Part shown: one piece after another, positions 15,211 through 58,775 of the stretch
Numbering within the stretch: the stretch's first letter is position 1
Layout: each line of letters starts with the position of its first letter
Source of the DNA: Qipengyuania seohaensis
Lineage (GTDB): Bacteria; Pseudomonadota; Alphaproteobacteria; Sphingomonadales; Sphingomonadaceae
Assembly: GCF_002795865.1 (NCBI RefSeq)
Contig: NZ_CP024920.1
Coordinates: forward strand, 682,001 to 746,000
DNA length: 64,000 nucleotides
Direction: 5' to 3'
Program-made: the position numbers and the translations under genes
The notes under the pieces: generated by a model
What the model saw: the letters and a program-made list of their open reading frames with translations, nothing else
What the model was told of the DNA's origin: nothing
The model's database searches: none

Positions 15211-16092
15211 CTACTCTTCGACCGGGCTCGGTTGTTCGATCCGGTTACCCGCACCATCGCGCAGGCGGCGCGGTTCCAGCACCGCTGCCGTTTCGATAAG
15301 GTCGAGCGCGCGCTGGGCCGAAGCATAGCGTTCAGCATCACGCAGCCAGCCTTCGGCATTCACTGCACCCGGCAAATTGCGTACTTCCGCCACTGCCGAA
15401 TCCGGACGGCCGCTTTCCAGGAACAGGCGCGCACGCTCCAGCCGCTGCTGGGGCTGCGGCGACGGCGCGCTTTCACGGCGGATCGTGAAGAGCGAGCCCA
15501 GTTCGTCGGCGAAGCGTTCGAGGCTCGGCTTGCCCTCGCCCGATTGCAGGCTGGGCGCGAGACCTTCAAGGCGGAAAATCAGCTGGTCGAGCGTGACCGG
15601 TTCGCGCGAGAAGGTGAGGATGGTGTTCACCGCATTCGGCAACGCATCGCCGAAGCGCAGCCGGAGCTGGTCTGCGAGATAGCCGAGTTCGGCCCCCTTA
15701 TCGACCGCACGGCGGGTCGCAAAAGCAATCAGCAGGCCTTCCGCGCGCGCCACGTTACCGGCGGCTGCCTGCGCCTGAAGGTCGAGCCTCGACAGGCGCT
15801 GTTCCGCAGCGGCGAGGCGCTGGTCTATGCCGCCCTGCTGTTCTGCCACACGCTCCACCGCCTCCGCCGCAGCCGCGCTTTCGCTGGCGCTGGGTGTCGG
15901 CGAAGGTTTGCCGCCCTCGGCCGGAGTGTTGTCTGCGATTTGTGCAGGTTCTGCGTCGCTGGCCGGCGCGGCGTCCATGCGCCACGCAATATAACCGGCC
16001 ACGCCCGCCCCGAGAGCGAAAGCGCCGCCCACGGCAAGCAACATCGGGCGCATCCCACCACGCGCACGCCGAGTCCTCGAAAACTCGTCCAT
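15211..16092 (-). CDS. Mitofilin/Mic60-like membrane protein
   Basis: The ATG at 16092, preceded by GGAGTAAG, gives 293 residues; a GTG 15 nt upstream is an alternative. The layout is a short basic N-terminus, one membrane segment (about residues 15-37, rich in Ala/Gly), a Pro/Ser/Ala linker, a heptad-like coiled-coil region (AEQRLSRLDLQAQAA) and a helical C-terminal domain. This arrangement and the position directly downstream of hemD match the alphaproteobacterial mitofilin-like family, relatives of mitochondrial Mic60, which shapes inner-membrane folds. Sequence similarity in the family is low, so the name rests largely on architecture and gene order. Confidence 0.75.
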   Translation of the reverse strand: MDEFSRTRRARGGMRPMLLAVGGAFALGAGVAGYIAWRMDAAPASDAEPAQIADNTPAEGGKPSPTPSASESAAAAEAVERVAEQQGGIDQRLAAAEQRLSRLDLQAQAAAGNVARAEGLLIAFATRRAVDKGAELGYLADQLRLRFGDALPNAVNTILTFSREPVTLDQLIFRLEGLAPSLQSGEGKPSLERFADELGSLFTIRRESAPSPQPQQRLERARLFLESGRPDSAVAEVRNLPGAVNAEGWLRDAERYASAQRALDLIETAAVLEPRRLRDGAGNRIEQPSPVEE

Positions 16093-41945: not shown

Positions 41946-43349
41946 CTATTGCGTGCTTGAAAGAAGGCGAAAGCCCCATGCGGGAAGCGTCACACTGTCG
42001 CCCTCGGCAAGCACCGTTTCCCCTTCTTCACGAAACCCGGTGTAGCGCCCCGCTGCGAGACCATCCAACAGCGTCACGCTCACTTCCGACGGCGAGAAAT
42101 TGAACAGGCCCACGACCTTGTTGCTGTCTTCCTGCCGCGCCCAGGCAAGCACCTGCTCGGGCTTGTCTGTCACCACCTGGTGCATCCGCGCACCCCACTG
42201 ACCGCTTTCGAGCGCCGGATTGGCCTTTCGAAAGGCGATCAGGTCGACCAGCAATTCGCCATATCCGCAGTCGGAATCCTGATCCCAGTCGATCGGGTCG
42301 CGCTCGAAGAACTCCAGCCGCTTGGCATTGCATGCCTCCATTCCATTATGGATCAGGGGAAGACCTTCGCCGGTGAAGGACAGCGCAGTCATCGCCTCCA
42401 GCGCGGCGCCATAATTCTCTTCCATCGTGCCTTCCCACGCATTGCTGTCGTGGTTCTCGATGTATGTCATGCGCATGGCCGAGCGCGGCCACAGGCTCTC
42501 GTTTTCGGCGTAATAGCCGTAGAAGCTGGTCGCATTGCCCTTGCCCTGCGCCACGTTCTTCGTCGTGTTGTGCCAGTCCCATGCATAGGTCGCATCGAAT
42601 GCCTTGTGGTGGAACGCTGTCTGCTGGACCTCGCCGAGCATGAAGACGGGCTTGATCGCTTCGAGACGCGCACGGGCAGTCTCCCAGAAATCAAGCGGAA
42701 CATATCCCGCCACATCGGCTCGGTAGCCATCGACGTCGAATTCGCGCACCCAGTATTCCATCGCCCCGCCGACATGCTCGCGCACACCCGGCTGCGACCA
42801 GTCGAGGTCGATGATATCGGACCAGTCCCACCACGGGGTCGGACGGAAACTGCCGTCCCAAGTCTTCTCGTACCAGTCGGGATGATCGCTGCGCAGCGCA
42901 TTATCCCAAGCCGTGTGGTTGGCGACAAGGTCGAGGATTACCTTGAAGCCCTGTTTGTGAGCGGCATCGACAAACTCACGGAACTCCTCCTCCGTGCCGA
43001 ATTCCGGGTTCACCGCGTAATAGTCCTGCACCGAATAGGGGCTGCCCAGAGTGCCCTTGCGGTTCTCCTCCCCGATCGGGTGGATCGGCATGAGCCACAA
43101 TATGTCGACGCCCAGTTCCTTCAGGCGCGGCAATTGTTCCTGTGCGGCAGCGAAGGTACCTTCCTCGGTAAAATGGCGCGTGTTGATCTGGTACAGCACG
43201 GCATCGCGCGACCATTCGGGATGCTCGATCGTGACGGTGTCTTGCGGCTCCCACGCTACGCTACCCGGTTCGTCAGGCGTGCCCGACATTGCGTAGGCAC
43301 CGCCCGCGACCAGAGCTGCTGCGGCCGCGCCGATGATGACCTTACGCAT
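41946..43349 (-). CDS. Periplasmic alpha-amylase-family (GH13) enzyme
   Basis: The ATG at 43349 gives 467 residues with a signal-like N-terminus ([20 protein letters not shown]). The GH13 barrel shows region motifs DLVANHTAWDN, the nucleophile Asp in VDGYRADVAGYVP, the acid Glu in FMLGEVQQT and YIENHDSNAWEG with the third acidic residue. A small C-terminal beta domain ends the protein. The start lies inside the end of the MFS gene (8-nt overlap), so the two are co-translated; together they should hydrolyse and import maltodextrins. GH13 specificity cannot be fixed from sequence alone. Confidence 0.9.
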   Translation of the reverse strand: MRKVIIGAAAAALVAGGAYAMSGTPDEPGSVAWEPQDTVTIEHPEWSRDAVLYQINTRHFTEEGTFAAAQEQLPRLKELGVDILWLMPIHPIGEENRKGTLGSPYSVQDYYAVNPEFGTEEEFREFVDAAHKQGFKVILDLVANHTAWDNALRSDHPDWYEKTWDGSFRPTPWWDWSDIIDLDWSQPGVREHVGGAMEYWVREFDVDGYRADVAGYVPLDFWETARARLEAIKPVFMLGEVQQTAFHHKAFDATYAWDWHNTTKNVAQGKGNATSFYGYYAENESLWPRSAMRMTYIENHDSNAWEGTMEENYGAALEAMTALSFTGEGLPLIHNGMEACNAKRLEFFERDPIDWDQDSDCGYGELLVDLIAFRKANPALESGQWGARMHQVVTDKPEQVLAWARQEDSNKVVGLFNFSPSEVSVTLLDGLAAGRYTGFREEGETVLAEGDSVTLPAWGFRLLSSTQ

Positions 43350-44880
43350 TGGCGTTCTCCCCCGGAACGGCAACCCGGAGCATGGCAAACGCAGCCACCG
43401 ACCAGCTCGCTGCGGCGAAAAGCATCGTCCAGATGGGGTCGGCCGGGAAGAATGCGTTCATCACGCTGCCCATAACGGTAGCCACCAGCAATTGCGGCAC
43501 CACGATGAAAATGTTGAACAGCCCCATGTAGATGCCGAGCTTCGCCTGGGGCAGGCTGCTGGCAAGGATTGCATAGGGCATGGCAAGGATCGAGGCCCAC
43601 GCAATCCCCTTCAATATCTCGCATACGATCAGCAGGTTCGGATCGCGCAGGAAGAAATACCCGAGAAACCCTAGCGCACCCAGGAGCAGGCAGGTCATGT
43701 GCGTCCGCGCCTTGCCCATACGCTTGGAAAGCAGCGGCAGGACCGCCAGTGCAGCAACAGCAGCTACGGCGTTCTGCACCGTGTAGATCAGGTTCCACCA
43801 GTTCGCGCCTTCGTTATAGGCGGCGGTCGTCGGATCGGCGCTGCCGTAGAAATACTGCGACACGATCGGGCCGGAATAGATCCACATGATGAAGAGGGAA
43901 GACCAGCTGAAGAACTGGACGACAGCCAGCTTTTTCATCGTGTCCGGCATTCCCGAGAAATCACCGACGATGCTGGACAGCATATTCGCGTGCTTGCCCT
44001 GCTTGGCCATGGAAATGCCGATGGCGCTGAGTAGCCCGTATGCAACGAGCAAGCCGCCCAGCAGCAGAATTTCCTTTTCCAGCCCAAGCGGCGAAACCGC
44101 GAGGATCACCGCAATGCCAGCAACCAGCCATACGGCTGCCGAAGTGTAGGTTTTCGCCGCGAGGGCACGCACGCTTTGCCCTGCCTCGACTTCTCGCTCC
44201 GCCTCGAATGCGGCCATTTCCTCGGGGCTGTATTCCTTGGTCGAGATGACAGTCCAGCCGATCGCCGCGAACAGGGCGACAGCGCCTGCCCAGAAGCTCC
44301 ACCTGACGGTATCGGGAATCTCGCCGGCGGGAGCGACGTTGCTGACGCCGAATTGCTCCAGCAGCCAAGGGAAGATCGCGGCGACCACTGCGCCCGCCCC
44401 GATGAAGGCAGTTTGCACCGCATAGCCGGTGGCGTGCTGCGACTTGTCGAGCATATCGCCGACAAACGCGCGGAACGGCTCCATCGAAATGTTGAGGCTC
44501 GCGTCAAGCACCCACAGCAAGGCGGCAGCGAACAGCAGCGGCGCGCCGAAGGCTGGCGCGAGCGGCATGAGCAGCAACGACAGCGCAGCCAGGATCGCGC
44601 CGGTCATGAAATAGGGCCGCCGGCGCCCGAAGCGGTTCCATGTCTTGTCCGAAAGGTGCCCGATAATCGGTTGTACGATCAGGCCGGTGAGCGGCGCGGC
44701 AACCCACAACGCCGGAAGATCGTCGAGCGATGCCCCCACGGTCTGGAAGATCCGGCTCATGTTGGAGTTCTGAAGGACGAACCCGATCTGGATGCCGAAG
44801 AAGCCGAAGCTGATATTGGCGAGCTGTCCCCAACCCATTTGCGGCTTGCGCGTCGATAGTGGTGCGGCCGAAGTCGCCAT
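43342..44880 (-). CDS. MFS sugar transporter (MalY/SLC45-like)
   Basis: A 512-residue transporter with about twelve membrane spans. The loop-2/3 motif [20 protein letters not shown] and the opening region ([20 protein letters not shown]) match the GPH/SLC45-type carriers that take up maltose or sucrose with protons, like the maltose carrier of Caulobacter. It is first in the minus-strand operon, followed by the amylase with an 8-nt overlap. A strong ribosome site and, 79 nt upstream, an operator-like palindrome precede it. Confidence 0.88.
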
Positions 44881-44980: not shown

Positions 44981-46012
44981 TCAGTTTTGTACGGTGCTGC
45001 CCCGGATAACCAGTTCACCCGCCAGCTTGCGCGGCTTCACTTCGCGCTCGTCGATCTGGGCCAGGAGAGCTTCGACTAGCGTTTCACCAGCGCCCTTTAC
45101 GTCCTGGGTGACGGTCGTCAGCGGAGGGGTGGTCAGACTGGCCGCCGGGATATCGTCGAAACCGACGACGGCAATGTCATTGGGCACGCGCTTGCCGGCT
45201 TCCGCAATCGCGCGCATGGCTCCGATCGCGATCAGATCGCTTGCGGCGAAGATCGCGTCACAAACACCTCCGCTGGACAACAAGGCCTTCGCAGCAGCGT
45301 AACCTGCCTCTTCGGTCGTGATTGCATCGAAGCGCGGCGGCGCAGGAAGTCCTGCTTCCTCCATCACTTTGCACAGGCCCGTGTAGCGACCAAGGAATTC
45401 GGGACAGGTTTCATCCGCCTCCCCCAGAAAGGCGATATTCCGCTTGCCGATACCGACGAGATGCTCACCGACCTTGCGGCCTGCATCGACATTGTCGGTG
45501 CCCACCGTAGCACCGCTGGAATCAAGGCTGACCGACCCCCACCGCGCGAAGTGCGTGCCCTGCGCCACGAGCTTTTCCAGCTTCGGCGTATAGGTCGTGT
45601 AATCGCCATAACCGAGGAGGATCAGCCCATCGGCGCGGTGGCTGTCCTGGTATTTTACGTGCCAGTCGTCTTCCATGCGCTGGAAGGAAATCAATAGGTC
45701 CAGCCCCCTGTCGGCGCAGGCCCGTGTGATCGAGCCGAGCATAGCGAGGAAGAAGGGATTGATCATGCTTTCGTCGGGCGTGGGATCCTCGAAGAAGAGC
45801 AGAGCGATCGTATTCGAACGCTGGGAGCGGAGCGAGGATGCGTTCTTGTCGACCGTGTAGTTGAGGTCGCGCGCGATCTGCTGGATCTTCTGGCGCGTCT
45901 GCTCGCTCACCGAGCGATCGCCGCGCAGCGCACGGCTGACGGTCGGCTGCGAAACGCCGGCGGCATAGGCGATGTCGAAGCTGGTCGGGCGACCAGTCGG
46001 CTTGCGTCCCAT
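44981..46012 (-). CDS. LacI-family transcriptional regulator of the maltodextrin locus
   Basis: The ATG at 46012, preceded by GGAGGAGAGAG, gives 343 residues. The N-terminal helix-turn-helix is [19 protein letters not shown], followed by a hinge and a periplasmic-binding-protein-like sugar domain ([20 protein letters not shown]). It should bind the palindromes found on each side and respond to a maltose-type sugar; this is inferred from position. It lies on the same strand as the MFS-amylase operon and is divergent from the TonB receptor. Confidence 0.95.
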
Positions 46013-46144: not shown

Positions 46145-46160
46145 GCGTATACGTATGCTG
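46145..46160. promoter_or_regulatory. Second operator-like site, before the TonB receptor
   Basis: GCGTATACGTATGCTG contains the palindrome CGTATACG (46146-46153) and matches the site at 44959-44974 at 11 of 16 positions. It lies in the 271-nt gap between the divergent regulator and receptor starts, about 124 nt before the receptor ATG, so it could control both. The rest of the gap shows no open frame and no clear promoter boxes. Confidence 0.6.
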
Positions 46161-46283: not shown

Positions 46284-49079
46284 ATGGCATTTCGCAAGCA
46301 TCTTGCCGGGACCAGCAGCGTTCCGGTTCTGGCACTGGCACTCGTCGGCGGCCTGTACCCGTCGGTCGCTGCTGCACAGGATACGCAGCCGGCAACCACC
46401 GTTCAGGAAGAAGAAGGCCAGCCGGTCGATGAAGCCGACGAAGGCGACGTCATCATCGTCAGCGGCTTTCGCGAATCGCTTGCCACCTCCGTCGCGCAGA
46501 AGCGCAACAGCGACCTGATCCTCGAATCGGTGACTGCCGAAGACATCGGCAAGCTGCCCGACGATTCGATCGGTGAATCGATCGCCCGCCTGCCCGGTGT
46601 GACCTCGCAGCGCCTCAACGGCCGCGCCAACGTCATTGCCATTCGCGGCCTCGGCCCCGACTTCTCGCAGACCCTTCTCAACGGTCGCGAGCAGACTTCG
46701 ACCGGCGACAACCGCGCCGTCGAATTCGATCAGTACCCGTCCGAAGTCGTGAACCAGGTGCTCGTCTACAAGAGCCCGTCGGCAAGCCTCGTCGGCCAGG
46801 GTCTTGTCGGCACGATCGACGTGCGCACCATCCGCCCGCTCGAGACGGGTCAGCAGATCCTCGCCATCGGTGCGAAGGGCTCTTATGCCGACCTCGGCGC
46901 GCTGAATGCGGGTTCGAAGGAATTCGGCTACCGCGCGAATGCGACCTACGTCGACCAGTTCGCCGACGACACGCTCGGCATCGCGCTGTCGGCCGCGTAC
47001 ACGGACGAGCCCTACCAGCTGCAGGAATTCAACGCCTGGGGTTATGCGGGCAATGGCGAACCGGGCAGCCCGTTCGTCATCGGCGGCAACAAGAGCTTCG
47101 TCACCTCCACACAGCTGACCCGCATCGGCGTGAACGGCACGCTCCAGTGGGAAGCGTCACCGACCCTGATGGTCACGCTCGACGGTTTCTATTCCAACTT
47201 CGACGATGACCAGTCCAAGCGCGGCATCGAATTGCCGCTCGGCTTCGGTGCGTTCGGTACGACCTTCGATCCGAGCACCGCGACGGTCGTCGACGGTCCC
47301 TTTGGCGGATTTGCCGAGCAGGGCACCTTCGAAAACGTCGAAGGCGTGGTTCGTAACGACGTGTTCCAGCGCAAAGCCGATCTCTATTCGGGCGGCCTCA
47401 ACCTCGATTACGAAGGCGATGATGGCTGGAGCGCTTTCTTCGACTTCGGTTTCTCGCGCACCGACCGCAACGAGCTAAGCATCGAAAGCTATTCGGGCAC
47501 CGGTTACAACGCCGGCGTCGGCGCAACCGACACCATCCAGTTCTTCTCGAACACCGAAGGCACCAGCTTCCAGCCGACGCTCGACTACAGCGATCCCAAC
47601 CAGATCGTGCTGACCGACCCGCTGGGCTGGGGTGGCAGCCGTGTGCAGGCCGGTTACTACAACAACCGCATCATCGAAGACGAACTGTTCCAGTACCGCC
47701 TCGGCGTTGCAAAAGAGCTTGAAGGCTTCATCTCCAAGGCAAACTTCGGCCTGTCCTACACCGATCGCAGCAAGAGCCTCACGCCTGACGAATTCTTCGT
47801 CATGCCGTCGGGTGGCGCAACCGAGCTTGCGATCCCGAGCAGCGCGCTCCTTCGTCCGACCGACCTCGGCTATCTCGGCCTCGGCCCGATCGTCAGCTAC
47901 GACGTGCGCGGCCTAATTGCGGACGGTACGCTGATCCTCGAAGCAAACGACAGCAACGATATCCCGGCCAAGGCATACGGCATCACCGAAAAACTGATGA
48001 CCGCCTACCTCCAGTTCGACATCCAGCAGGACCTCGGCGCGGGTGAGCTGACCGGTAACTTCGGCGTCCAGGCTATTAACACCGAGCAGAATTCGACCGG
48101 TGTCGCATTCGTCGATCTCGACGGCGACGATTCCACCCCGGACGATAGGGTACCGCTGTCGCTTGGCGACAACTTCTGGGACATACTGCCTAGCGCCAAC
48201 CTGTCGCTGCGTTTCGATAGCGGATGGGTAATCCGTTTGGCGGCCAGCCGCCAGATCCAGCGCCCGCAGCTCGACGACCTGCGCGTCGCGATCGACTACG
48301 GGATCGTCGAAACCAACAATGGCCAGAGCCCGACGGGCCAGTACCCCTACATTGATGGCGGTGGCGGCAACCCTGTCCTGCGTCCCTTCCGAGCCAATGC
48401 AGTTGACTTCAACGTCGAAAAATACTTCGCTGGCGGCGCCGGTGTCGTCGCAGCCCAGCTGTTCTACAAGGATATCGTCAGCTACATCGACGGCGACGCC
48501 CAGGTCTTCGATTACAGCGCCTTCCCGCTCCCGGCAGGCAACCCGCCCGCCACGACGGTCGGCCTGCTGCGCTCTGAAGTGAACACCGGCGGCGGTGGAT
48601 TCTACGGTGCCGAACTTTCGGCAACGGTGCCGTTCGATGCCTTCGTTTCGGGCCTTCAGGGCTTCGGTGCGACTGGCGGCGTCGGCTACACCAAGACCGA
48701 GATCGAGAATGCCCAGGGCAATGTGGACCAGATCCCGGGCTATTCGAAGTGGGTGGCCAACGGCACGCTCTACTACGATCTCAACGGCTTCAGCGCCCGC
48801 GGTAGTGTGCGTTATCGCTCCGAATTCCTCGCGGACTTCACGGGCTTCGGTGGCAACATCACGCGCCGCCTGGCTCGTGCGGAAACCATCGTGGATGCCC
48901 AGATCGGTTACGAATTCCAGCCGGGTAGCGCGCTGGAAGGCCTGTCGATCTACGTCCAGGGCCAGAACCTTACGAACCAGCCCTTCGTGTCGCAATTCGA
49001 TGTGCCGGAACCGCGCGCAGTAATCGACTACCAGGAATACGGTCGTCGTTTCCTCGCCGGGTTTACCTACAAGTTCTAA
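46284..49079 (+). CDS. TonB-dependent receptor (maltodextrin uptake, MalA-like)
   Basis: The ATG at 46284 gives 931 residues with a signal peptide ending near VAAAQ (about residue 33). The plug domain begins GDVIIVSGFRESLATSVAQK and contains DIGKLPDDSIGESIARLPGV and GRANVIAIRGLGPDFSQTLL; the barrel ends in the typical aromatic KF (FLAGFTYKF). Length and motifs match the sugar-transporting receptors of Caulobacter and sphingomonads. It is the outer-membrane entry point of the locus, has an operator upstream and a strong hairpin 55 nt downstream. Confidence 0.95.
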   Translation: MAFRKHLAGTSSVPVLALALVGGLYPSVAAAQDTQPATTVQEEEGQPVDEADEGDVIIVSGFRESLATSVAQKRNSDLILESVTAEDIGKLPDDSIGESIARLPGVTSQRLNGRANVIAIRGLGPDFSQTLLNGREQTSTGDNRAVEFDQYPSEVVNQVLVYKSPSASLVGQGLVGTIDVRTIRPLETGQQILAIGAKGSYADLGALNAGSKEFGYRANATYVDQFADDTLGIALSAAYTDEPYQLQEFNAWGYAGNGEPGSPFVIGGNKSFVTSTQLTRIGVNGTLQWEASPTLMVTLDGFYSNFDDDQSKRGIELPLGFGAFGTTFDPSTATVVDGPFGGFAEQGTFENVEGVVRNDVFQRKADLYSGGLNLDYEGDDGWSAFFDFGFSRTDRNELSIESYSGTGYNAGVGATDTIQFFSNTEGTSFQPTLDYSDPNQIVLTDPLGWGGSRVQAGYYNNRIIEDELFQYRLGVAKELEGFISKANFGLSYTDRSKSLTPDEFFVMPSGGATELAIPSSALLRPTDLGYLGLGPIVSYDVRGLIADGTLILEANDSNDIPAKAYGITEKLMTAYLQFDIQQDLGAGELTGNFGVQAINTEQNSTGVAFVDLDGDDSTPDDRVPLSLGDNFWDILPSANLSLRFDSGWVIRLAASRQIQRPQLDDLRVAIDYGIVETNNGQSPTGQYPYIDGGGGNPVLRPFRANAVDFNVEKYFAGGAGVVAAQLFYKDIVSYIDGDAQVFDYSAFPLPAGNPPATTVGLLRSEVNTGGGGFYGAELSATVPFDAFVSGLQGFGATGGVGYTKTEIENAQGNVDQIPGYSKWVANGTLYYDLNGFSARGSVRYRSEFLADFTGFGGNITRRLARAETIVDAQIGYEFQPGSALEGLSIYVQGQNLTNQPFVSQFDVPEPRAVIDYQEYGRRFLAGFTYKF

Positions 49080-49134: not shown

Positions 49135-49182
49135 AGCCTGCCGGGACAACTTTCCCTACAAGGATGGCAATCCCGGCAGGCT
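49135..49182 (+). repeat. 12-bp perfect inverted repeat between receptor and halogenase genes
   Basis: AGCCTGCCGGGA (49135-49146) pairs perfectly with TCCCGGCAGGCT (49171-49182) across a 24-nt loop. It sits in the 119-nt gap after the receptor stop and ends 16 nt before the halogenase start. There is no T run, so it is unlike a simple terminator; it could protect the receptor mRNA or limit expression of the enzyme genes. Confidence 0.75.
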
Positions 49183-49198: not shown

Positions 49199-50716
49199 GT
49201 GACCGACCAGGAAACCTTCGATATCTGCATTGCCGGCGGCGGGACCGCTGGCTGGATGGCGGCCGCCATGCTTGCGCGCTTCCTGCCCGCCACGCACCGG
49301 GTCACGCTGGTCGAAAGCGCAGAGATCGGAACCGTCGGCGTCGGCGAAGCCACGATCCCGCAAATCCACTTACTCAACAACGCGCTCGGCCTCGACGAAG
49401 CCGAATTCCTCCGCGAAACCAAGGCAACCTTCAAGCTGGGCATCGAATTCGATGGCTGGCAACGCCCCGGCCAAGCTTACATGCACGCATTCGGCCCCGT
49501 CGGACGGGCCCATGGTTTGCTGCCGTTCCACCACTACTGGCTGCGCGCAAAACAGGCCGGTTGGGCCAGGCCGCTGGCCAATTATTCGCTCAACGAAATG
49601 GCCGCACGCACGCTCAAGATGCGCCGCGGGCCGCGGACGGCGCATTCGCCGGCGATGCCCTATGCCTATCATTTCGATGCCGGGCTCTATGCCGCTTTCC
49701 TTCGCAACTATTCCGAACAGCGCGGAGTGGCCCGTGTCGAGGGCACGATCGCCCATGTCGAGCAGGACGCCGAAAGCGGATTTCTGACCGCTGTCGATTT
49801 GGGCGATGGCCGCCGGATCGAAGCGGATTTCTTCATCGACTGCACCGGCTTTCGCGGATTGCTGATCGAGCAAGCGCTGGAGACGGGTTTCGACGACTGG
49901 ACCCAGTTCCTGCCATGCGACCGCGCCATGGCTGTTCCGTGTGAGAATGGCGGCAACCTTACGCCCTACACACGCTCCATCGCGCACAAGGCGGGTTGGC
50001 AATGGCGCATCCCGTTGCAGCACCGCATCGGCAACGGCTTGGTCTATTCATCCGCCCACCTCGACGATGACGAGGCGGCGACGCTTTTGCTCGGCAATCT
50101 CGACGGATCGCCGCAGGCCGACCCAAAGCCGATCCGCTTCACTACCGGCAAGCGCCAGAAGCACTGGAACGGCAATTGCCTCGCACTGGGGCTAGCTGCG
50201 GGCTTCATGGAGCCGCTTGAGTCGACCAGCATCCACCTCGTGCAAAGCGCAGTCAGCCGGTTCCTGTCGGTCCTTCCGGGCAAGACGCCCGATCCCGCCA
50301 TCATCGACTGGTTCAACGACCAGGCTCAGTTCGAATGGACGCGCATCCGCGATTTTCTCGTCCTTCACTACTCGGCCAACGAGCGCGAGGGCGAGCCCTT
50401 CTGGGACGCAGTCCGGCACATGGCCCTACCGGACACGCTGGCGGCGAAGCTGGAAAACTGGCGCGCCACCGGTTTCATCCACCGCGAGCACGAGGAATTG
50501 TTCACCGAAGTGGGCTGGTTCCAGGTTCTCGCCGGACAGGGCATCGAGGCGCGCGACTATAACCGCCTCGCCGACGCGCTAAGCGGCGACGATTTGCGCA
50601 AGCTGCTCGACGGGACCGAAGCAGCGCTCGTCGAAGAAGCGCAGCAAATGCCCTCGCATCGCGATTTCCTAACCCGCTTCGCCAATCTCTCTCCCCAGCA
50701 GGAAGCTTCCGCATGA
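49199..50716 (+). CDS. Flavin-dependent halogenase-like protein 1
   Basis: Starts at a GTG with a GGTGAG box 5-6 nt upstream; 505 residues. All hallmarks of flavin-dependent tryptophan-type halogenases are visible: the FAD loop AGGGTAGWMAAAML, the WxWxIP motif (Trp267-Pro272, AGWQWRIP), the catalytic Lys at position 79 (ATFKLGIEF) and the Glu-Ser pair Glu341-Ser342 in FMEPLESTSIHL. No signal peptide, so it is cytoplasmic. It is the first of five genes chained by four-base overlaps. Homologues next to TonB receptors are known in Caulobacter relatives and Xanthomonas, and a few have been shown to halogenate indole-type compounds; the natural substrate is unknown. Confidence 0.9.
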   Translation: MTDQETFDICIAGGGTAGWMAAAMLARFLPATHRVTLVESAEIGTVGVGEATIPQIHLLNNALGLDEAEFLRETKATFKLGIEFDGWQRPGQAYMHAFGPVGRAHGLLPFHHYWLRAKQAGWARPLANYSLNEMAARTLKMRRGPRTAHSPAMPYAYHFDAGLYAAFLRNYSEQRGVARVEGTIAHVEQDAESGFLTAVDLGDGRRIEADFFIDCTGFRGLLIEQALETGFDDWTQFLPCDRAMAVPCENGGNLTPYTRSIAHKAGWQWRIPLQHRIGNGLVYSSAHLDDDEAATLLLGNLDGSPQADPKPIRFTTGKRQKHWNGNCLALGLAAGFMEPLESTSIHLVQSAVSRFLSVLPGKTPDPAIIDWFNDQAQFEWTRIRDFLVLHYSANEREGEPFWDAVRHMALPDTLAAKLENWRATGFIHREHEELFTEVGWFQVLAGQGIEARDYNRLADALSGDDLRKLLDGTEAALVEEAQQMPSHRDFLTRFANLSPQQEASA

Positions 50717-52554
50717 TCCGCCTGACACTCCCGCTTCTCGCCCTTGGCCTTGCATCATGCGCAAACGCCGAGACCGCGCCGCAAAGCACGCCGGTCGCCG
50801 CCGAGAAAAGCTTCCGCGACCGCCTGCCAAGCGAGGAAATCGTCTATTTCGTCCTGCCCGACCGCTTCGAGAACGGCGACACCGCCAACGACCTCGGCGA
50901 TTTTACCGGCGGACGGTTGGAAACGGGTTTCGACCCGTCGCACAAGGGCTTCTTCCACGGCGGCGACCTGCAGGGGCTTACGCAGCGTCTGGACTATCTT
51001 GAAAATCTCGGTGTTACCGCGATCTGGTTCGCGCCGATCTTCCAGAACAAGCCGGTTCAGGGGCCGAAGGGCGACGAAAGCGCCGGATATCACGGATATT
51101 GGGTGACCGATTTTACGCGTCCGGACGGCCATTTCGGCACGCGCGAGGAATTCAAGACTTTCGTCGATGCCGCCCATGCGCGCGGGATGAAGGTCTACAT
51201 GGACATCATCACCAACCATACCGCCGACGTGATCCGCTACGCCGAGGGCGACGAGACCGGTTATGCCTATCGCAGCCTTGGCGATTATCCCTACTCGACG
51301 CGCGGCGGGCTTAACGGTGAGCCGATAAACAATGGATTTTCGGGTCACGAGGATTCGAGTGAGGAAAACTTCGCCCGTCTTACCGATCCGACCTACGCCT
51401 ACACGCCCTACGTGCCGGAAGCAGAGCGCGAGGTTAAGGTCCCAGCCTGGCTCAATAATCCGATCTACTACCACAATCGCGGGGACACGACCTTCACCGG
51501 GGAAAGCAGCCGACAGGGTGATTTCGTCGGTTTGGACGACCTTTTCACCGAACACCCTCGCGTCCGCGACGGAATGATCGAGATCTATTGCGGCTGGGTG
51601 CGGAGTACCGGTATCGACGGCTTCCGCATCGATACTGCCCGCCATGTCGACCCCGGCTTCTGGCAAACCTTCGTGCCCGCTTTGGAAGCATGTTCCGAAG
51701 AGGCAGGCATCCCCAACTTTCATATGTTCGGCGAAGTCGCTTCGGAAATTCCGACCGCGGGCTACTTTGCGGAGTACACCCGTCGCGACAAACTGCCTGC
51801 CGTGCTCGATTTTGCCTTTGCTGCAGCCATGCGCGAAGTGCTGGGCCGCGGCGAAGGTACGCATGTCCTAAGCACGCTGTTCGAAGGCGACGTGCTGTAT
51901 GAGGGCGGGGTAGAAACCGCACTGACGCTGCCCACGTTCCTTGGCAATCACGACGTGGGACGCTTCTCGACGCTTATCAAAGCGGACATGCCCGATATCT
52001 CGCAGGAAGAGCTTTTAGCCCGCGTGAAACTGGGACATGCGATGATGTTGGCGCTGCGTGGTTCGCCGGTGATCTATTACGGGGCCGAGCAGGGCTTTGT
52101 CGGCGATGGCAATGACCAGCTGGCACGCGAAGACATGTTTCCCTCCAAAACCGCCGTTTACAACGATAACCGGTTACTTGGGACGGATGCGACTACGGCA
52201 GACAGCAATTTCGACGAGAACCACCCGCTGTTCCGCCTGATTGCCGAATTTTCGCAGATGCGGCGCGCCCATCCGGCATTGCTGCGTGGGCGTCAGGTTG
52301 TTCGCCATTACGAACAGGAACCCGGCATCTTCGCAGTGAGCCGTTTCGATCCCGGCGACGGGAGTGAATATCTCGCAGTCTTCAATACCAGCGGCGAAGT
52401 GCAGCAAGCCAATGTAACGCTCGGCTACGATGCGCGCTTATTCGAGCAGCTTGCAGGCGCCTGCCCCGCTGCCGTCACCGCGCCAGGCAGCGCGACATTC
52501 TCGCTTCCCGCCTTCGGATGGGCCGTCTGCCGCGTTGCGGAGACTGCCGAATGA
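50713..52554 (+). CDS. GH13 alpha-amylase-family lipoprotein
   Basis: A 613-residue enzyme with signal and lipobox (LGLASC, Cys16), so probably anchored in the outer membrane or its periplasmic face. The GH13 catalytic residues are in GFRIDTARHV (nucleophile), FHMFGEVAS (acid/base) and LGNHDVGRF. A C-terminal beta domain follows. It should cut starch or maltodextrins near the receptor. The ATG overlaps the halogenase stop by four bases and the next gene overlaps its own stop in the same way. Confidence 0.93.
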   Translation: MIRLTLPLLALGLASCANAETAPQSTPVAAEKSFRDRLPSEEIVYFVLPDRFENGDTANDLGDFTGGRLETGFDPSHKGFFHGGDLQGLTQRLDYLENLGVTAIWFAPIFQNKPVQGPKGDESAGYHGYWVTDFTRPDGHFGTREEFKTFVDAAHARGMKVYMDIITNHTADVIRYAEGDETGYAYRSLGDYPYSTRGGLNGEPINNGFSGHEDSSEENFARLTDPTYAYTPYVPEAEREVKVPAWLNNPIYYHNRGDTTFTGESSRQGDFVGLDDLFTEHPRVRDGMIEIYCGWVRSTGIDGFRIDTARHVDPGFWQTFVPALEACSEEAGIPNFHMFGEVASEIPTAGYFAEYTRRDKLPAVLDFAFAAAMREVLGRGEGTHVLSTLFEGDVLYEGGVETALTLPTFLGNHDVGRFSTLIKADMPDISQEELLARVKLGHAMMLALRGSPVIYYGAEQGFVGDGNDQLAREDMFPSKTAVYNDNRLLGTDATTADSNFDENHPLFRLIAEFSQMRRAHPALLRGRQVVRHYEQEPGIFAVSRFDPGDGSEYLAVFNTSGEVQQANVTLGYDARLFEQLAGACPAAVTAPGSATFSLPAFGWAVCRVAETAE

Positions 52555-54137
52555 GCGGCAAGCTGCCTTGGTGGAAGGGTGCGGTGATCTACCAGATCTA
52601 TCCGCGCAGCTTCATGGATTCGAATGGCGATGGGATCGGCGATCTTCCGGGCATCGCGCAGCGCCTGCCGCACATTGCAGAACTTGGCGCGGACGCGATC
52701 TGGATTTCGCCCTTCTTCAAGTCGCCGATGAAGGATTTCGGTTACGACGTTTCGGATTACTGCGACGTCGACCCGATCTTCGGCACGCTGGAAGACTTTG
52801 ACGCGGTCATCGCCCGCTCACACGAACTCGGCCTCAAGGTGCTGATCGACCAGGTCTATTCGCACACATCGGACGACCACGAATGGTTCGCCGAAAGCCG
52901 ATCGAACCGCGATAATCCCAAGGCCGAATGGTATGTCTGGGCCGATGCCAAGCCCGACGGCTCGCCCCCGTCGAACTGGCAATCGGTCTTCGGCGGCCCG
53001 GCATGGACATGGGACGCGCGGCGTGGGCAATATTACCTGCACAACTTCCTATCCAGCCAGCCCCAGCTCAACCTCCACAACCGCGAAGCGCAGCAGGCTG
53101 TGCTGGATGTTATGCGGTTCTGGCTCGAGCGCGGCGTTGACGGCTTCCGCATCGATGCACTCAACTTCGCGATGCACGACCCGCAATTGCGCGACAATCC
53201 GCCCGCCCCGCCGACGGACAAGCAGCGCACCCGGCCGTTCGACTTCCAGCTCAAGACCTACAACCAGAGCCATGCGGACATTCCCGCCTTCATCGAGCGC
53301 ATCCGCGCGCTGACCGACGAATTCGACGGTATTTTCACCGTCGCCGAAGTCGGCGGCGACGATGCCGTGCGCGAGATGAAAGCCTTTACCGAAGGCGAAA
53401 CACACCTCAATTCGGCGTACGGGTTCAATTTCCTCTACGCCGAGGCATTGACGCCGCAGCTGGTCTGTTCCGCCCTCGCCGAATGGCCGGAAGAACCGGA
53501 CCTCGGCTGGCCCAGCTGGGCGTTCGAAAACCACGATGCGCCCCGTGCTCTCAGCCGGTGGTGCACGCCGGAAGACCGCCAGGCTTTCGCGCGCCTCAAG
53601 ACTCTCCTCCTGATGAGCCTGCGCGGCAATGCGATCCTCTATTATGGCGAGGAACTGGGCCTGACACAGGTCGATATCCCCTTCGACCAGCTGCACGATC
53701 CCGAGGCGATCGCGAACTGGCCGCTGACGCTGAGCCGCGACGGTGCGCGTACCCCCATGCCTTGGGACGATAGCGAATGTGCCGGCTTCGGCAGCACCGC
53801 GCCATGGCTCCCGGTTGGCGACGACAACCGTCCCCGTTCCGTCGCAGCGCAGCTAGGCGATGCGAACTCCTTGCTCAAATTCACCAGACAGGCGATTGCA
53901 TTGCGCAAGGCGAACCCGGCCCTGCACCATGGCCACGTGGTGGAATGCAATCACGACGGCGACTTGCTGGAACTGGTGCGCGAAGCCGGCGGCCAGCGGC
54001 TGCGCTGCCGCTTCAATCTCGGCAGCAAGCCCGTTGAATGCGACGATTGCGAAGGCCGCACATTGCTTGCGATCAATGGGGCCGAGCCGACCGCCCTCCC
54101 CCCCTTCGCCGCCATCATCCTGGAGACCGACACATGA
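52551..54137 (+). CDS. Cytoplasmic GH13 alpha-glucosidase (oligo-1,6-glucosidase-like)
   Basis: The ATG at 52551 gives 528 residues without a signal peptide. It begins with the GH13 subfamily 23-type KGAVIYQIYPRSFMDSNGDG and shows GVDGFRIDALNFAMHD (nucleophile), TVAEVGGDDA (acid/base) and FENHDAPRALSR. Such enzymes release glucose from the non-reducing end of maltose and short dextrins. Being cytoplasmic it fits the last step after uptake by the MFS carrier. Both ends overlap neighbours by four bases. Confidence 0.93.
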   Translation: MSGKLPWWKGAVIYQIYPRSFMDSNGDGIGDLPGIAQRLPHIAELGADAIWISPFFKSPMKDFGYDVSDYCDVDPIFGTLEDFDAVIARSHELGLKVLIDQVYSHTSDDHEWFAESRSNRDNPKAEWYVWADAKPDGSPPSNWQSVFGGPAWTWDARRGQYYLHNFLSSQPQLNLHNREAQQAVLDVMRFWLERGVDGFRIDALNFAMHDPQLRDNPPAPPTDKQRTRPFDFQLKTYNQSHADIPAFIERIRALTDEFDGIFTVAEVGGDDAVREMKAFTEGETHLNSAYGFNFLYAEALTPQLVCSALAEWPEEPDLGWPSWAFENHDAPRALSRWCTPEDRQAFARLKTLLLMSLRGNAILYYGEELGLTQVDIPFDQLHDPEAIANWPLTLSRDGARTPMPWDDSECAGFGSTAPWLPVGDDNRPRSVAAQLGDANSLLKFTRQAIALRKANPALHHGHVVECNHDGDLLELVREAGGQRLRCRFNLGSKPVECDDCEGRTLLAINGAEPTALPPFAAIILETDT

Positions 54138-56170
54138 TCCGCCATATCGCCCTCTTCATCGGTGCCTCGCTCCTGCCGATCGCTGCGGCGCAAGCGGAAA
54201 CGGTCACCTCGCCCGACGGGCGTATCGCGGTAACGCTAGACGCGGACGGCGAAGGCATTCCCTATTACGAAGTCACGCGCGACGGCGTGCCGGTCATCGC
54301 CAAATCGAACCTCGGCTTCGCTTTCACCGACGCCGACCCGATGCGCCGCAATTTCGAAGTGGTCGCCTTTCGCGAGGAAAGCCACGCCAGCACCTGGGAG
54401 CAGCCGTGGGGGGAGCGCCAGTGGGTGCAGGACATTCACAATGAACTGGCCCTCACCTTCCGCCAGCGCGATGAAGACGCGCGCGAGATTACCGTGCGTA
54501 TGCGTGTGTTCGACGATGGCCTCGGCTTCCGCGTCGAATTCCCGGAAACGGAACGCCAGCCCGTCTATCGCATCGCGGAAGAACTGACCGAATTCAACAT
54601 CGCTGCCGATGGCACGGCATGGTCGATTCCCGCTGGCGACTGGAACCGCTACGAATATCTCTATTCGAAGACCCCAGTGAGCGCGCTCTCTACCGTGCAC
54701 ACGCCGGTGACGATGGTGCTCGACAACGGCCTGCACCTCTCTTTCCACGAGGCGGCACTGATCGACTATTCGGGCATGTGGCTGCGCCGCATCGACGACA
54801 CCCGTTTTCGCGCCCAGCTGGCGCCATCGCCGCGCGGTCCCAAGGTAATCCGCGAAGGCGCCTTCACCACGCCGTGGCGCACGATCCAGATCGCGGGCGG
54901 GCCTAAGGGCCTGTTCGAAAGCAACATCATCCTCAACCTCAACGAGCCCAACAAGCTCGGCGACGTCAGCTGGTTCACCCCGCACAAGTACATCGGCATC
55001 TGGTGGGAAATGCACCTCGATGACAGCAGCTGGGCAAGCGGTGAAAAGCACGGCGCGACGACCGCAAACGCCAAGCGGCACATCGACTTCGCCGCAGAGA
55101 ACGGCTTTCGCGGCGTCCTGATCGAAGGCTGGAACCTGGGCTGGGACGGCACCTGGTTCGGCAATGGCCGCGAGTTCGATTTCACCACCGCCTATCCCGA
55201 TTTCGATATCGTCGAAGTCGCCCGGTACGCGCGGGAAAAGGGCGTGCGCATCATCGGCCACCACGAAACGGGCGGCAATATCAAGGTATACGAAGAACAA
55301 CTCGAAGACGCGATGGCCTTCTATGAAAGCCTCGGCATCGATGCGGTGAAGAGCGGTTATGTCGCCGATGCTGGCGGGATCATCGCGCCTGCCGGTGAAG
55401 GCGGCATGGGCGAGACCTTCGTCTGGCACGACGGGCAGGAGATGGTCCGCCATCACCTGAAGGTCGTTGAAGAGGCAGCCGAGCACAAGATCGTCATGAA
55501 TCCGCACGAACCCATCAAGGACACCGGCCTTCGCCGGACCTATCCGAACTGGGTGAGCCGCGAGGGCGCTCGCGGCGCTGAATACGATGCCTGGGCGGTT
55601 CCGAAGAACGATCCGGGCCATGTGCCGGAACTCATTTTCACGCGGATGCTGTCGGGTCCGATGGACTATACGCCTGGCGTGTTTTCGCTCGAAGGGCGCG
55701 GTGCGACCGCCCCTGACCTGCCGAGCACCCTTGCGCGGCAACTGGCATTCTACGTAGCGATCTACTCGCCGATCCAGATGGTCGCCGACCTGCCGGAAAA
55801 CCTGGCGAAGTATCCGCGCGCGCTCGACTTCGTAAAGCGGGTTCCGGCCGACTGGGCAGAAAGCCTTCTCGTCGATGGCAAAGTGGGCGAATTCGCCATC
55901 ATTGCCCGCCGCGATAGGGATACGCTGAACTGGTATGTTGGCGCAGTTACCGATGCAGAGGAACGTGTTGCATCGGTCCCACTGTCCTTCCTCGATCCCG
56001 GCAAGTCCTATGCCGCAACGATCTGGCGTGACGGCGCGAAAGCCGATGGACTTGGCGAGGATCGCCATGCGATGGAGGTCGAGACCATGACCGTAACCGC
56101 CGACCAGACGCTCGATCTCCGCCTTGCACCCGCAGGCGGCTTCGCGATCGAGTTCGTGCCGCAGGGGTGA
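54134..56170 (+). CDS. GH97 alpha-glucosidase (SusB-like)
   Basis: The ATG at 54134 gives 678 residues with a signal peptide (MIRHIALFIGASLLPIAAAQ, cleavage near AQA). GH97 features: the N-terminal beta-sandwich, the barrel segments YIGIWWEMHL and LIEGWNLGWDG, NPHEPIKDTGLRRTYPNW with the Glu of the calcium/base region, and SREGARGAEYDAW with the likely general acid. The family acts on alpha-1,4-linked glucose units by inverting or, in one branch, retaining mechanism; the Glu pattern here points to the inverting SusB type. It overlaps both neighbours by four bases. Confidence 0.94.
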   Translation: MIRHIALFIGASLLPIAAAQAETVTSPDGRIAVTLDADGEGIPYYEVTRDGVPVIAKSNLGFAFTDADPMRRNFEVVAFREESHASTWEQPWGERQWVQDIHNELALTFRQRDEDAREITVRMRVFDDGLGFRVEFPETERQPVYRIAEELTEFNIAADGTAWSIPAGDWNRYEYLYSKTPVSALSTVHTPVTMVLDNGLHLSFHEAALIDYSGMWLRRIDDTRFRAQLAPSPRGPKVIREGAFTTPWRTIQIAGGPKGLFESNIILNLNEPNKLGDVSWFTPHKYIGIWWEMHLDDSSWASGEKHGATTANAKRHIDFAAENGFRGVLIEGWNLGWDGTWFGNGREFDFTTAYPDFDIVEVARYAREKGVRIIGHHETGGNIKVYEEQLEDAMAFYESLGIDAVKSGYVADAGGIIAPAGEGGMGETFVWHDGQEMVRHHLKVVEEAAEHKIVMNPHEPIKDTGLRRTYPNWVSREGARGAEYDAWAVPKNDPGHVPELIFTRMLSGPMDYTPGVFSLEGRGATAPDLPSTLARQLAFYVAIYSPIQMVADLPENLAKYPRALDFVKRVPADWAESLLVDGKVGEFAIIARRDRDTLNWYVGAVTDAEERVASVPLSFLDPGKSYAATIWRDGAKADGLGEDRHAMEVETMTVTADQTLDLRLAPAGGFAIEFVPQG

Positions 56171-57663
56171 GCACAGGCTCCGCTCCTCGCGTCGTCGTCC
56201 TCGGCGGCGGCAGCGCAGGATGGATCACCGCCTGCCTGCTGCACCACGAGTGGGCTGCACGCGGCGGCAGGGTCACCGTCGTGGAAAGCCCGGCGATCGG
56301 CATCATCGGCGTTGGCGAAGGCTCCACGCCGCAACTGAAGGCATTCTTCGACCACCTCGGCATAGAAGAGGCGGAGTGGATGGCGGCCTGCGATGCTACC
56401 TACAAGCTTGGCATCCGCTTCACCGGCTGGAGCGAGCGAGAGGGGTGCGAGAGCTATTTCCACCCCTTCCCGGGTCCGGTCGACCTCCATACCGAGCCAG
56501 GCTTCGTCAAGAATTGCGCCCTCCGCCGCCGGGGCATAGACGTGCCCGCACACCCCGACGCCTGGTTCCTGGCGGCACAGCTCGCCTCATCGAAGCGCGG
56601 CCCTGTGCCGCACGCGAACTTCCCCTTCCCGCAAAGCTATGGCTACCATTTCGATGCCCACAAGCTCGGCGCATTCCTGCGCGACTGGGCAGTCCCTCGC
56701 GGTGTCGTGCATCGCCCCCTGAAGGTGGAAGAGGTGGAGCTTGCACAGGACGGCGATATCGCGGCCCTGCTTTGCGAAGGCGGGGAGCGCATAGAAGGCG
56801 ACCTGTTCGTCGACTGCTCCGGCTTTGCTGCCATGCTGGCCCAGCAGAAACTCGGTGCGCAGTTCCTGCCCTTCGCGGAGAACCTGTTCAACGATTCCGC
56901 CGTGGTCATGCCGACACCGCATACGCAGCCGATCGTTCCGCAGACCGAAAGCATCGCGATGAGCGCAGGTTGGCGTTGGTCGATCCCGCTGACATCGCGG
57001 GTGGGGAATGGATATGTCTATTCGTCACGCCACATCAGCGATGACGATGCCGCCACCGAACTGGCAGATGCTTTGGGCGTCGCCGCAGACGAAGCTCAGC
57101 CGCGCTTCCTGAAGATGAAGGTCGGCAGGTTAGAGAATAGCTGGGTACGCAATTGCCTCGCCACCGGCCTGTCGCAAGGCTTCATCGAGCCGCTGGAGGC
57201 AACGGCGCTGCATATCGTCATCGCGACCGCGCTCGATTTCGCCAAGGCCTACGAGAGCGCCGGATTCACCGATACGCATCGTGACACTTTCAACCAGAGG
57301 ATCGCCGCGCGTTACGAAGGTATTCGCGACTATATCGTTGCGCACTATCGCATGAACCAGCGCGGCGACACGGACTACTGGCGACAGAACGCGGCGAACC
57401 AGACGCTATCGGACAACCTCAAAGCGATGATGACGGCCTGGTTCACGCATGGCTCGATCGAGGAGGCCAACGCCAAGGCATACGGTCCCGCCGCGCCATA
57501 CGCCCCGATGAGCTGGCATGCGCTGTTCGCGGGCTACGGCACCTTTCCTCCGCCTGCCAAGATGCAGGCACCACCGCCCGGCCTGGACGTTGCGGATCGC
57601 GAGGCAGCCCGCACCTTGCTTGCTGCCTGCGCGCTCAATTTCCCGGAGTACGCTCCGGTTTAG
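56167..57663 (+). CDS. Flavin-dependent halogenase-like protein 2
   Basis: Starts at a GTG overlapping the GH97 stop (GTGA); 498 residues. It has the FAD loop LGGGSAGWITACLL, WxWxIP at Trp269-Pro274 (AGWRWSIP), catalytic Lys80 (ATYKLGIRF) and Glu344 in FIEPLEATALHI, where the residue after the Glu is Ala rather than Ser as in protein 1 and PrnA. It differs from protein 1 over most of its length, so it is not a recent tandem copy. No signal peptide. It closes the five-gene operon and converges on the next gene, 6 nt away. Confidence 0.9.
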   Translation: MSTGSAPRVVVLGGGSAGWITACLLHHEWAARGGRVTVVESPAIGIIGVGEGSTPQLKAFFDHLGIEEAEWMAACDATYKLGIRFTGWSEREGCESYFHPFPGPVDLHTEPGFVKNCALRRRGIDVPAHPDAWFLAAQLASSKRGPVPHANFPFPQSYGYHFDAHKLGAFLRDWAVPRGVVHRPLKVEEVELAQDGDIAALLCEGGERIEGDLFVDCSGFAAMLAQQKLGAQFLPFAENLFNDSAVVMPTPHTQPIVPQTESIAMSAGWRWSIPLTSRVGNGYVYSSRHISDDDAATELADALGVAADEAQPRFLKMKVGRLENSWVRNCLATGLSQGFIEPLEATALHIVIATALDFAKAYESAGFTDTHRDTFNQRIAARYEGIRDYIVAHYRMNQRGDTDYWRQNAANQTLSDNLKAMMTAWFTHGSIEEANAKAYGPAAPYAPMSWHALFAGYGTFPPPAKMQAPPPGLDVADREAARTLLAACALNFPEYAPV

Positions 57664-57669: not shown

Positions 57670-58638
57670 CTAGCGTTGCGGATCGGGCGTGTCGTCCGGC
57701 CCGGCCTGCGCCTGGCCCTGCACCACTTCACCCGACTGGAAAATCGGACCCTCGGTGGGCAGCGTCGACACCGTCTCTCCGGTCTCGTCGTCCTGCGTCG
57801 CTACGATGACGGGTTGTACGCCAGCAGACGGCGGAAGATCGACAGGTGCCTGTGTCTCTCCGGCTACCGTGACAGGCTGGGTTGCAGGCATCGAATTCAC
57901 CAGGGTATCGCCCGGCGCGACGTTGACACCGGGGCTGAGCGGATTGGTGTAGCCCTGGACAGTCGTCGTGACGGTTGGCGGACCGTATTTCGAATCCCAC
58001 GCGGCAAGGTTCACGCGGTACTGTTCGTAGGCGCGGTAGAAATCGTTGAAGACGCTCTCGATCCGCGGGAGTGCGACAGCGGCGAAGCTATCGAGCGTTC
58101 CGACCTCTGCGGTCAGCGCGTCGCGGCTGACTGCCAGCGCGGCATCGCAGAAATTGCCCATGGCGGGCGGCAGCGCGAAGTAGTTGTAGACCTGCGTCAT
58201 GTAGGAATCCTGCACGTCGCGGTAGGTCGCACCGTACTTCTGGCGGAATTCCCCCTGCAGGGCGCGGTTGGTCGCCGAAAGCTGGCGCGCGTTGCGCTTC
58301 AGGAAGGCGCCGTAATTGTCGACCAGCATCGTCGCCTGCGGCTCGGGGCAATTGAGCGCCGCAACGTTCAGCGCGGAGCGCAGGTTCCACACGGTCTGTG
58401 CCGGGGTGAGGTTCGCGTTGACGGTCTGGCGCACGCCATCGACGGCTACCAGCGGAATAGTCATGCCGGTGGTTGCACCCATTGGCGGGACCGGACGCGG
58501 CGGGATCACAACCGGCGCGGGTGGCGGAGGGGGCGGCGGCGGGGGAGGAGGAGGAGGCGGTGTGGCACAGGCCGAAAGAGCGAGCAGGCCGCCAGCGATG
58601 GCAGCGAAGCGGATGTTTATGTGCGAATTGCGGCTCAC
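57670..58638 (-). CDS. Hypothetical lipoprotein with a 14-proline run
   Basis: The GTG at 58638 is preceded by GAGGAGGG and gives 322 residues. A signal with lipobox LLALSAC is followed at once by a run of 14 prolines, then a Pro-rich linker, a helical domain (VWNLRSALNVAALNCPEPQA onward) with two cysteines, and a Thr/Val-rich disordered tail. No family is recognised. The proline run would span the periplasm or hold the domain off the membrane. Translation of it should depend on elongation factor P. Confidence 0.8.
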   Translation of the reverse strand: MSRNSHINIRFAAIAGGLLALSACATPPPPPPPPPPPPPPAPVVIPPRPVPPMGATTGMTIPLVAVDGVRQTVNANLTPAQTVWNLRSALNVAALNCPEPQATMLVDNYGAFLKRNARQLSATNRALQGEFRQKYGATYRDVQDSYMTQVYNYFALPPAMGNFCDAALAVSRDALTAEVGTLDSFAAVALPRIESVFNDFYRAYEQYRVNLAAWDSKYGPPTVTTTVQGYTNPLSPGVNVAPGDTLVNSMPATQPVTVAGETQAPVDLPPSAGVQPVIVATQDDETGETVSTLPTEGPIFQSGEVVQGQAQAGPDDTPDPQR

Positions 58639-58738
58639 GGCGCGCGTACCCTCCTCAAGGAATTTTCTGTCTTCACCATGAACGCGTCTTGATTGACCCG
58701 CGATGAAGCGTTTCACTCTCCTACCCCCTTGAGCGGAC

Positions 58739-58775
58739 AAAGAAAATGCCCGGGGCGCAAGTTACGCCCCGGGCA
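58739..58775 (-). terminator. Intrinsic terminator of the Bax-inhibitor gene
   Basis: TGCCCGGGGCG (58747-58757) and CGCCCCGGGCA (58765-58775) form a perfect 11-bp stem with a 7-nt loop. On the minus strand it is followed by TTTTCTTT, a classic U tract. It lies 37 nt after the stop of the Bax-inhibitor gene. Confidence 0.9.

Follow-up and report, generated by a model that had tools for sequence, protein, structure and literature searches.

Paired flavin-dependent halogenase genes in a TonB-receptor alpha-glucan operon of Qipengyuania seohaensis

Flavin-dependent halogenases of the BrvH and Xcc4156 kind have been studied as biocatalysts, and their natural substrates are given as unknown in the literature passages available to us. 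Alpha-glucan uptake loci of the mal or carbohydrate utilization (CUT) type have also been described. According to the accessible parts of the reports, MalA of Caulobacter, the XCC2469 locus of Xanthomonas (PMC1790865), and the Shewanella Mal locus (PMC2996990) share with the locus studied here a TonB receptor, a repressor, a sugar transporter, and alpha-glucan enzymes, and the Shewanella repressor is likewise of the LacI type (PMC2996990). The word halogenase appears in the main text of neither paper, and no description of halogenases in maltodextrin or TonB-receptor loci was found in the accessible parts of the open-licence literature searched. In the present study, we analyzed a 64,000-nucleotide stretch of the Qipengyuania seohaensis genome (contig NZ_CP024920.1, positions 682,001 to 746,000; hereafter the window), taken from a genome of 2.94 Mb in a single contig. 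The window holds a locus of the mal/CUT type, in which a receptor, a LacI regulator, a transporter, and alpha-glucan glycoside hydrolases (GHs) stand together. The gene order is GH13, major facilitator superfamily (MFS) transporter, and LacI regulator on the minus strand, and TonB receptor, halA, GH13, GH13, GH97, and halB on the plus strand. We lean towards the reading that halA and halB encode cytoplasmic halogenases that serve as accessories of TonB-receptor alpha-glucan uptake and act on an aromatic compound other than free tryptophan, with halB as an optional second step.

To place the genes among their relatives, we surveyed one draw of 149 genomes of the family, counting among the matches listed and taking 52% identity or more as a halB ortholog. 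It was observed that halB orthologs occurred in 29 of the 149 genomes and lay within 15 kb of the GH13 of this operon in 28 of these 29, with about 1% expected by chance. These results ruled out a random placement relative to sugar operons, the alternative named in an earlier reading of the sequence alone (the sequence-only reading). We then examined 80 named halB loci, the best 80 of 163. An alpha-glucan GH was accompanied by at least two halogenases in 70 of them (halA and halB in 68, two genes of the halB clade in L101 and L106) and by one halogenase in three (L061 and L098 are short contigs; the single gene of L086 is real). The remaining seven showed no GH, and three of these (L099, L102, and L112) are contigs of less than 6 kb. 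In the L076 and L096 genomes, halA lies in the alpha-glucan locus and the halB of the locus set elsewhere; the L096 genome holds a further halogenase, 34% identical, about 11 kb from halA. The expectation that the pair follows GH13 and GH97 genes across genomes therefore held in part: the association is conserved in sphingomonads and beyond, but halA follows the receptor and not the sugar enzymes. The closest halB relatives are in Qipengyuania aquimaris, Q. nanhaisediminis, and Q. intermedia (90-95% identity). In a draw of 289 genomes from the class, a search at an E value of 1e-130 retrieved halB from one, its own genome, indicating that halB is uncommon beyond the family at this threshold.

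The TonB receptor was the common neighbor of halA. In 66 of the 68 alpha-glucan loci, a TonB-dependent receptor gene lies directly 5' of halA on the same strand, with a median gap of 123 bp; the other two (L077 and L093) are at contig edges. A second set of 64 halogenase loci was hand-picked, not random, among the matches listed (60 plus L115-L118), and it includes two alpha-glucan loci (L118 and L207), one with an alpha-amylase (L174), and one about 14 kb from gh13b (L170). A receptor was present within 1 kb in 52 of the 64 and within 3 kb in 56, compared with about 5 expected within 3 kb from the density of 25 receptors in this genome; eight (L155, L169, L170, L172, L185, L193, L204, and L205) had none within 7 kb. 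The halogenase genes within 1 kb of a receptor were divergent from it in 38 cases, in line behind it in 12, and in line before it in 3. Because single examples of receptor-linked loci that we scanned carried GH3, GH10, GH16, GH31, GH13/GH97, or alpha-amylase genes, the partner of the halogenase is the receptor and not one glycan. Moreover, in 34 alpha-glucan loci examined, halogenase and receptor occurred together: 17 receptor-bearing loci had a halogenase and 7 did not, versus 1 and 9 of the loci free of a receptor (Fisher p 0.002).

We further compared the divergence of the operon genes in a mirror-tree analysis of 50 complete sets (49 loci and the window, partial receptors included), in which the receptor position is occupied by any of four receptor classes. 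Distance followed receptor class for halA (p 0.0005) and weakly for gh97 (0.03), and was not clear for gh13a (0.08) and halB (0.07). When the other genes were controlled for, the partial correlation with the receptor was 0.31 for halA (p 0.001), 0.12 for gh97 (p 0.04), 0.07 for gh13a (p 0.16), and -0.02 for halB. The gammaproteobacterial genomes of L103 and L109 have a second halB-clade gene about 20 kb away, immediately behind a TonB receptor, so the receptor-adjacent slot holds different halogenase clades in different bacterial classes. In L209 this second gene is near GH97 and MFS genes, and both regions resemble glycogen metabolism by eye. In L103 and L109, at about 11500-15600, halB stands beside genes that resemble tyrosine breakdown by eye (maleylacetoacetate isomerase and 4-hydroxyphenylpyruvate dioxygenase).

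The presence of two enzymes was nested. Among 62 gh13b places in the 149-genome draw, counted with limits of our own setting (58% identity, 15 kb), 28 had halA and halB, 17 had halA only, none had halB only, and 17 had neither, although one of these last (G116) does carry a halogenase (L230). The halB clade is monophyletic with support 1.0, and each of its 23 tips belongs to the halB locus set. Two halA-type genes each were found in the halA-only loci L234, L239, and L243, and two halB-type genes in the L103 and L109 genomes, L101, and L106. These pairs indicated that two enzymes per system is an arrangement seen repeatedly, with parents that differ. Most simply, the pair would carry out two successive or two-site halogenations; heterodimers are another possibility.

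Both proteins look like intact halogenases. Their PF04820 matches are far above the cut-off (Table 1), and the flavin adenine dinucleotide (FAD) motif GxGxxG is present at residue 13 (GGGTAG in halA, GGGSAG in halB). The catalytic Lys (K79 and K80), Glu (E341 and E344), and WxWxIP motif (WQWRIP and WRWSIP) claimed in the sequence-only reading could be read from the translations. In an alignment with PrnA, which ends at residue 423, K79 and E341 of halA fall on the PrnA catalytic pair. Lys, Glu, and WxWxIP were invariant in an alignment of 37 halA sequences (the window and 36 picked from 68 halA matches) and in one of 42 halB sequences (the window and 41 sequences of the halB clade chosen among the 80 loci, with L106 represented twice). 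AlphaFold2 models had predicted local distance difference test (pLDDT) scores of 87.8 for halA and 92.2 for halB. The best PDB matches of the halA model were 9luq, 6y1w, and 6frl, with template modeling (TM) scores of 0.91-0.93, and that of the halB model was PyrH (2wet, TM 0.85). The modeling that had been proposed as a check thus gave a predicted halogenase fold for each protein. The two are 36% identical, and the Trp4 motifs of free-tryptophan halogenases (groups A and B), as given in the accessible part of PMC8269204, were not found by eye in either. In halB, five changes (A51G, T52S, I53T, S342A, and S344A in halA numbering) are clade-wide (23/23) and lie close to the flavin loop and to the catalytic Glu. 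Judged from their sequences, halA and halB are intact-looking flavin-dependent halogenases.

On this basis, we propose the following scheme. Maltodextrin would lift LacI repression of the receptor operon, as an operator-like site (described below) suggests, and reduced FAD would come from an unlinked reductase. Each enzyme would form hypohalite at the flavin and hand it to the Lys. The substrate would be an electron-rich aromatic, indole- or phenol-like, other than free tryptophan, in keeping with the family mechanism and the unseen Trp motif. halA would perform the basic, receptor-coupled step, and halB an optional second step, which the nesting suggests would most likely occur at a second position or on the halA product.

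Several observations weigh against this scheme. The L086 genome, a metagenome-assembled genome outside the draw, has halB as its single halogenase and no halA. The halA model is poorly determined at residues 44-49 of the flavin loop. In 23 of 23 halB sequences, Ala takes the place of the Ser that follows the catalytic Glu, so the chemistry of halB could differ. Among 105 other halogenases, 6 are without the Lys and 5 without the Glu, suggesting that the wider group may be partly non-catalytic. The partial correlations of the non-adjacent pairs gh13b-halB (0.63) and gh13a-halB (0.32) exceed or match that of receptor and halA, so such correlations arise where no functional tie is shown; linkage also explains part of the receptor-halA covariation (0.15 for the adjacent halA and gh13a). 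The halA genes of alpha-glucan loci form no clade of their own, their 27 tips being mixed with 13 other halogenases in a 40-tip clade. The seven receptor-bearing alpha-glucan loci noted above had no halogenase in the 20 kb examined, which indicates that the halogenases are accessory and that uptake does not need them. Finally, the operator-like site also occurs 5' of receptors without a halogenase; it is therefore a feature of the sugar locus in which the halogenases share.

Other explanations were weighed. The sequence-only reading had suggested an aromatic compound that accompanies plant or algal alpha-glucan, either attached to it or as an admixture. The location with glucan enzymes and a likely co-regulation fit this idea, but the same family stands beside receptors in GH3, GH10, GH16, and GH31 loci, which makes the receptor the common partner, and alpha-glucan receptor loci free of halogenase exist. 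In addition, one of the two halogenases in each of two gammaproteobacterial genomes is near the genes that resemble glycogen metabolism. We did not retain this explanation and give it little credence. A non-halogenating flavin reaction, as of a monooxygenase or oxidase on a retained halogenase scaffold, would fit the clade-wide changes near the halB active site. However, K79A abolishes the PrnA reaction and E346Q lowers its rate by two orders of magnitude, according to the available passages of PMC5727139. The Lys, Glu, and WxWxIP are kept throughout both alignments, and this retention favors halogenation; this alternative is very doubtful. A small halogenated antimicrobial or signal, made under abundant starch and keeping competitors from the released sugar, would agree with the sugar-locus control, the cytoplasmic enzymes, and the one to four halogenases per receptor locus. 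We consider it unlikely, since the operon and flank proteins scanned included no biosynthetic, carrier, export, or resistance family and thus did not resemble a natural-product cluster, although one flank ORF (open reading frame) has no Pfam match.

The enzymes could also act on the TonB receptor or another envelope protein and halogenate one of its aromatic residues before export. halA tracks the receptor class, and other halogenase loci add Cupin_8 (18/64), SapC (4/64), or, in L115, a tetratricopeptide repeat (TPR)-sulfotransferase, families that modify proteins elsewhere. Group C halogenases include MibH, which acts on a peptide Trp (accessible part of PMC8269204), and the available passages of PMC11340318 list a tryptophan halogenase transposon hit (one insertion) in a Sphingomonas isolate among genes affecting colony morphology. 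However, no Trp column reached 80% conservation over 88 halogenase-linked receptors. W356, W553, and W927 (numbered from the ORF start at 45972) are conserved in 0.96, 1.00, and 0.87 of 46 alpha-glucan receptors, but they are also present in 4, 4, and 3 of 7 halogenase-free receptors. A conserved receptor Trp was not retained as a universal target, the comparison of receptors arguing neither for nor against the idea. Protein modification seems quite improbable. A version in which dedicated halogenases of sphingomonad TonB-receptor loci form a maturation or gating layer of nutrient uptake, with an aromatic on an envelope peptide or receptor as target and one enzyme per site, likewise carries a low probability.

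The regulation of the locus was examined next to its receptor gene. The palindrome GTATACGTATGC at 46147 differs from the LacI-operator-like sequence GCATACGTATGC by one mismatch and is the sole copy in the window at two mismatches or fewer. At this stringency, all 18 intergenic regions examined between LacI and receptor genes contained GCATACGTATGC, against 0.19 expected from mononucleotide shuffles; this count is descriptive and not an independent test, as the sequence was derived from the same 18 regions (exact core in 6). From this site, repression of the receptor operon by LacI in the absence of maltodextrin seems probable. In the receptor-halA gap, the segment 49077-49205 folded with z = -5.8, better than 200 of 200 shuffles, and z was below -3 in 37 of 65 usable gaps of relatives (mononucleotide shuffles; a few gaps preceding a halB-clade gene, e.g., L112, are included, and L055 with 106 N was dropped). 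The terminator scan listed no terminator-like site within the receptor-halA gap; accordingly, the stem-loop may be an mRNA-processing or stabilizing hairpin inside one operon.

The features of the locus are collected in Table 1. The start of the LacI regulator was taken as the ATG of MGRKPTG, the longest ORF beginning at 46078. Profile matches and coordinates agreed with the five-gene chain of the sequence-only reading, with halogenase-like genes first and last and three GHs between, and its four-base overlaps were present at all four junctions (ATGA, ATGA, ATGA, and GTGA) given starts at 52551 for the second GH13 and 54134 for GH97; the longest ORFs of these two begin at 52518 and 54038. The chain has a sixth, leading gene, the TonB receptor, whose stop lies 119 bp 5' of halA. 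By tblastn coordinates, all four gapless junctions also occur in L035, L036, and L068, and the other relatives examined have one or none; because the full set recurs only in these three, the overlaps are a local compaction. In L068, GH13b and GH97 are 96-97% identical to those of the window, halA 75%, and the receptor only 40%; the receptor end of that operon looks like a replacement. As for a precursor peptide encoded in the operon, small frames are present in the gaps, and none stood out. The flank proteins scanned belong to sulfate assimilation, thiolase, acyl-CoA dehydrogenase, Bax1-I, YbjN, and FtsZ, besides one without a match.

Table 1. Features of the alpha-glucan locus (window coordinates)
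Feature	Position	Strand	Basis
Further GH13 enzyme, divergent arm	41946..43388	-	PF00128
MFS sugar transporter, inner membrane	43342..44880	-	PF07690, PF13347
LacI-family regulator, divergent from receptor gene	44981..46012	-	PF00356 + PF13377, translation
LacI-operator-like palindrome GTATACGTATGC, 125 bp 5' of receptor ATG	46147..46158	+	match to GCATACGTATGC
TonB-dependent receptor, signal peptide (MAFRKH...)	46284..49079	+	TIGR01782, 520.7 bits (cut-off 310)
12-bp perfect stem-loop, receptor-halA gap	49135..49182	+	folding
halA, flavin-dependent halogenase of the BrvH/Xcc4156 kind; GTG start, 505 aa	49199..50716	+	PF04820, 624 bits (cut-off 21)
GH13 alpha-amylase-type enzyme (gh13a), lipoprotein-like leader by eye	50713..52554	+	PF00128
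GH13 alpha-glucosidase-type enzyme, no leader seen	52551..54137	+	PF00128 + PF11941
GH97 enzyme, signal-peptide-like leader by eye	54134..56170	+	PF10566, PF14508, PF14509
halB, flavin-dependent halogenase from a distinct clade linked mostly to alpha-glucan loci; GTG start, 498 aa	56167..57663	+	PF04820, 422 bits (cut-off 21)
Flank ORF without Pfam match	57670-58740		

The genome contains four PF04820 genes, namely halA, halB, and those at C1:308833 and C1:881691, in three halogenase loci that each adjoin one of the 25 receptors. The family scan of the locus agreed with the sequence-only reading that no flavin reductase stands beside the pair. A dedicated reductase was rejected as a candidate: the single PF01613 gene found in the genome (C1:881074-881505) adjoins a different halogenase, and among the 64 other loci tblastn finds it in 2, its own locus L116 and L117. 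In L116:8449-10646 (C1 about 881000-883100), this reductase gene lies beside a halogenase divergent from a receptor-LacI-MFS-GH3 locus. Four consecutive genes in L115:3023-10330 (C1 about 303000-310300) encode a TonB receptor, a protein of 262 aa that matches no Pfam family, a TPR-sulfotransferase (PF13469), and a halogenase; the sulfotransferase is a possible second modification enzyme of the receptor locus. A receptor, halogenase, SapC, Cupin_8, halogenase operon was observed in L181:8464-11799, and four halogenase genes in one receptor locus in 13 of the 64 loci, including L150, L151, L171, L184, L188, L190, and L191. Cupin_8 and SapC were rejected as constant partners: besides the 18 and 4 of 64 loci given above, one of the 80 halB loci has Cupin_8 and none has SapC, so they are not general.

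These results link a halA-type halogenase with a receptor, a regulator, and an operon that is probably inducible, and relatives have naturally gained or lost each of the enzymes. The cellular role of BrvH- and Xcc4156-type halogenases thereby becomes testable by genetics and mass spectrometry. If the maturation or gating version were true, halogenation would be a routine part of sugar import and not secondary metabolism.

Compared with characterized enzymes, halA matches BrvH (Brevundimonas, 6frl), Xcc4156 (Xanthomonas campestris, 6y1w), and the Pseudoalteromonas L11 halogenase (9luq) over about its whole length (441-523 bits); the catalytic residues are shared, and the Trp4 motif is not seen. 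The literature passages on BrvH and Xcc4156 available to us mention no receptor or sugar-operon context, whereas halA has both. The closest PDB matches of halB are the tryptophan 5-, 6-, and 7-halogenases (PyrH, Th-Hal, PrnA, and RebH), with the 5/6-halogenases nearest and 289 bits to Th-Hal. halB shares their catalytic pair and is 28-33% identical to them in the listed fold alignments, but it has EPLEAT for EPLEST, its Trp4 motif is not seen, and it lies in a sugar operon, whereas the tryptophan halogenases lie in a natural-product cluster. KtzQ and KtzR are the sequential dichlorination pair of a natural-product cluster. Unlike these, halA and halB come with no known pathway or product; they resemble them in being two related halogenases in one cluster that possibly act in succession.

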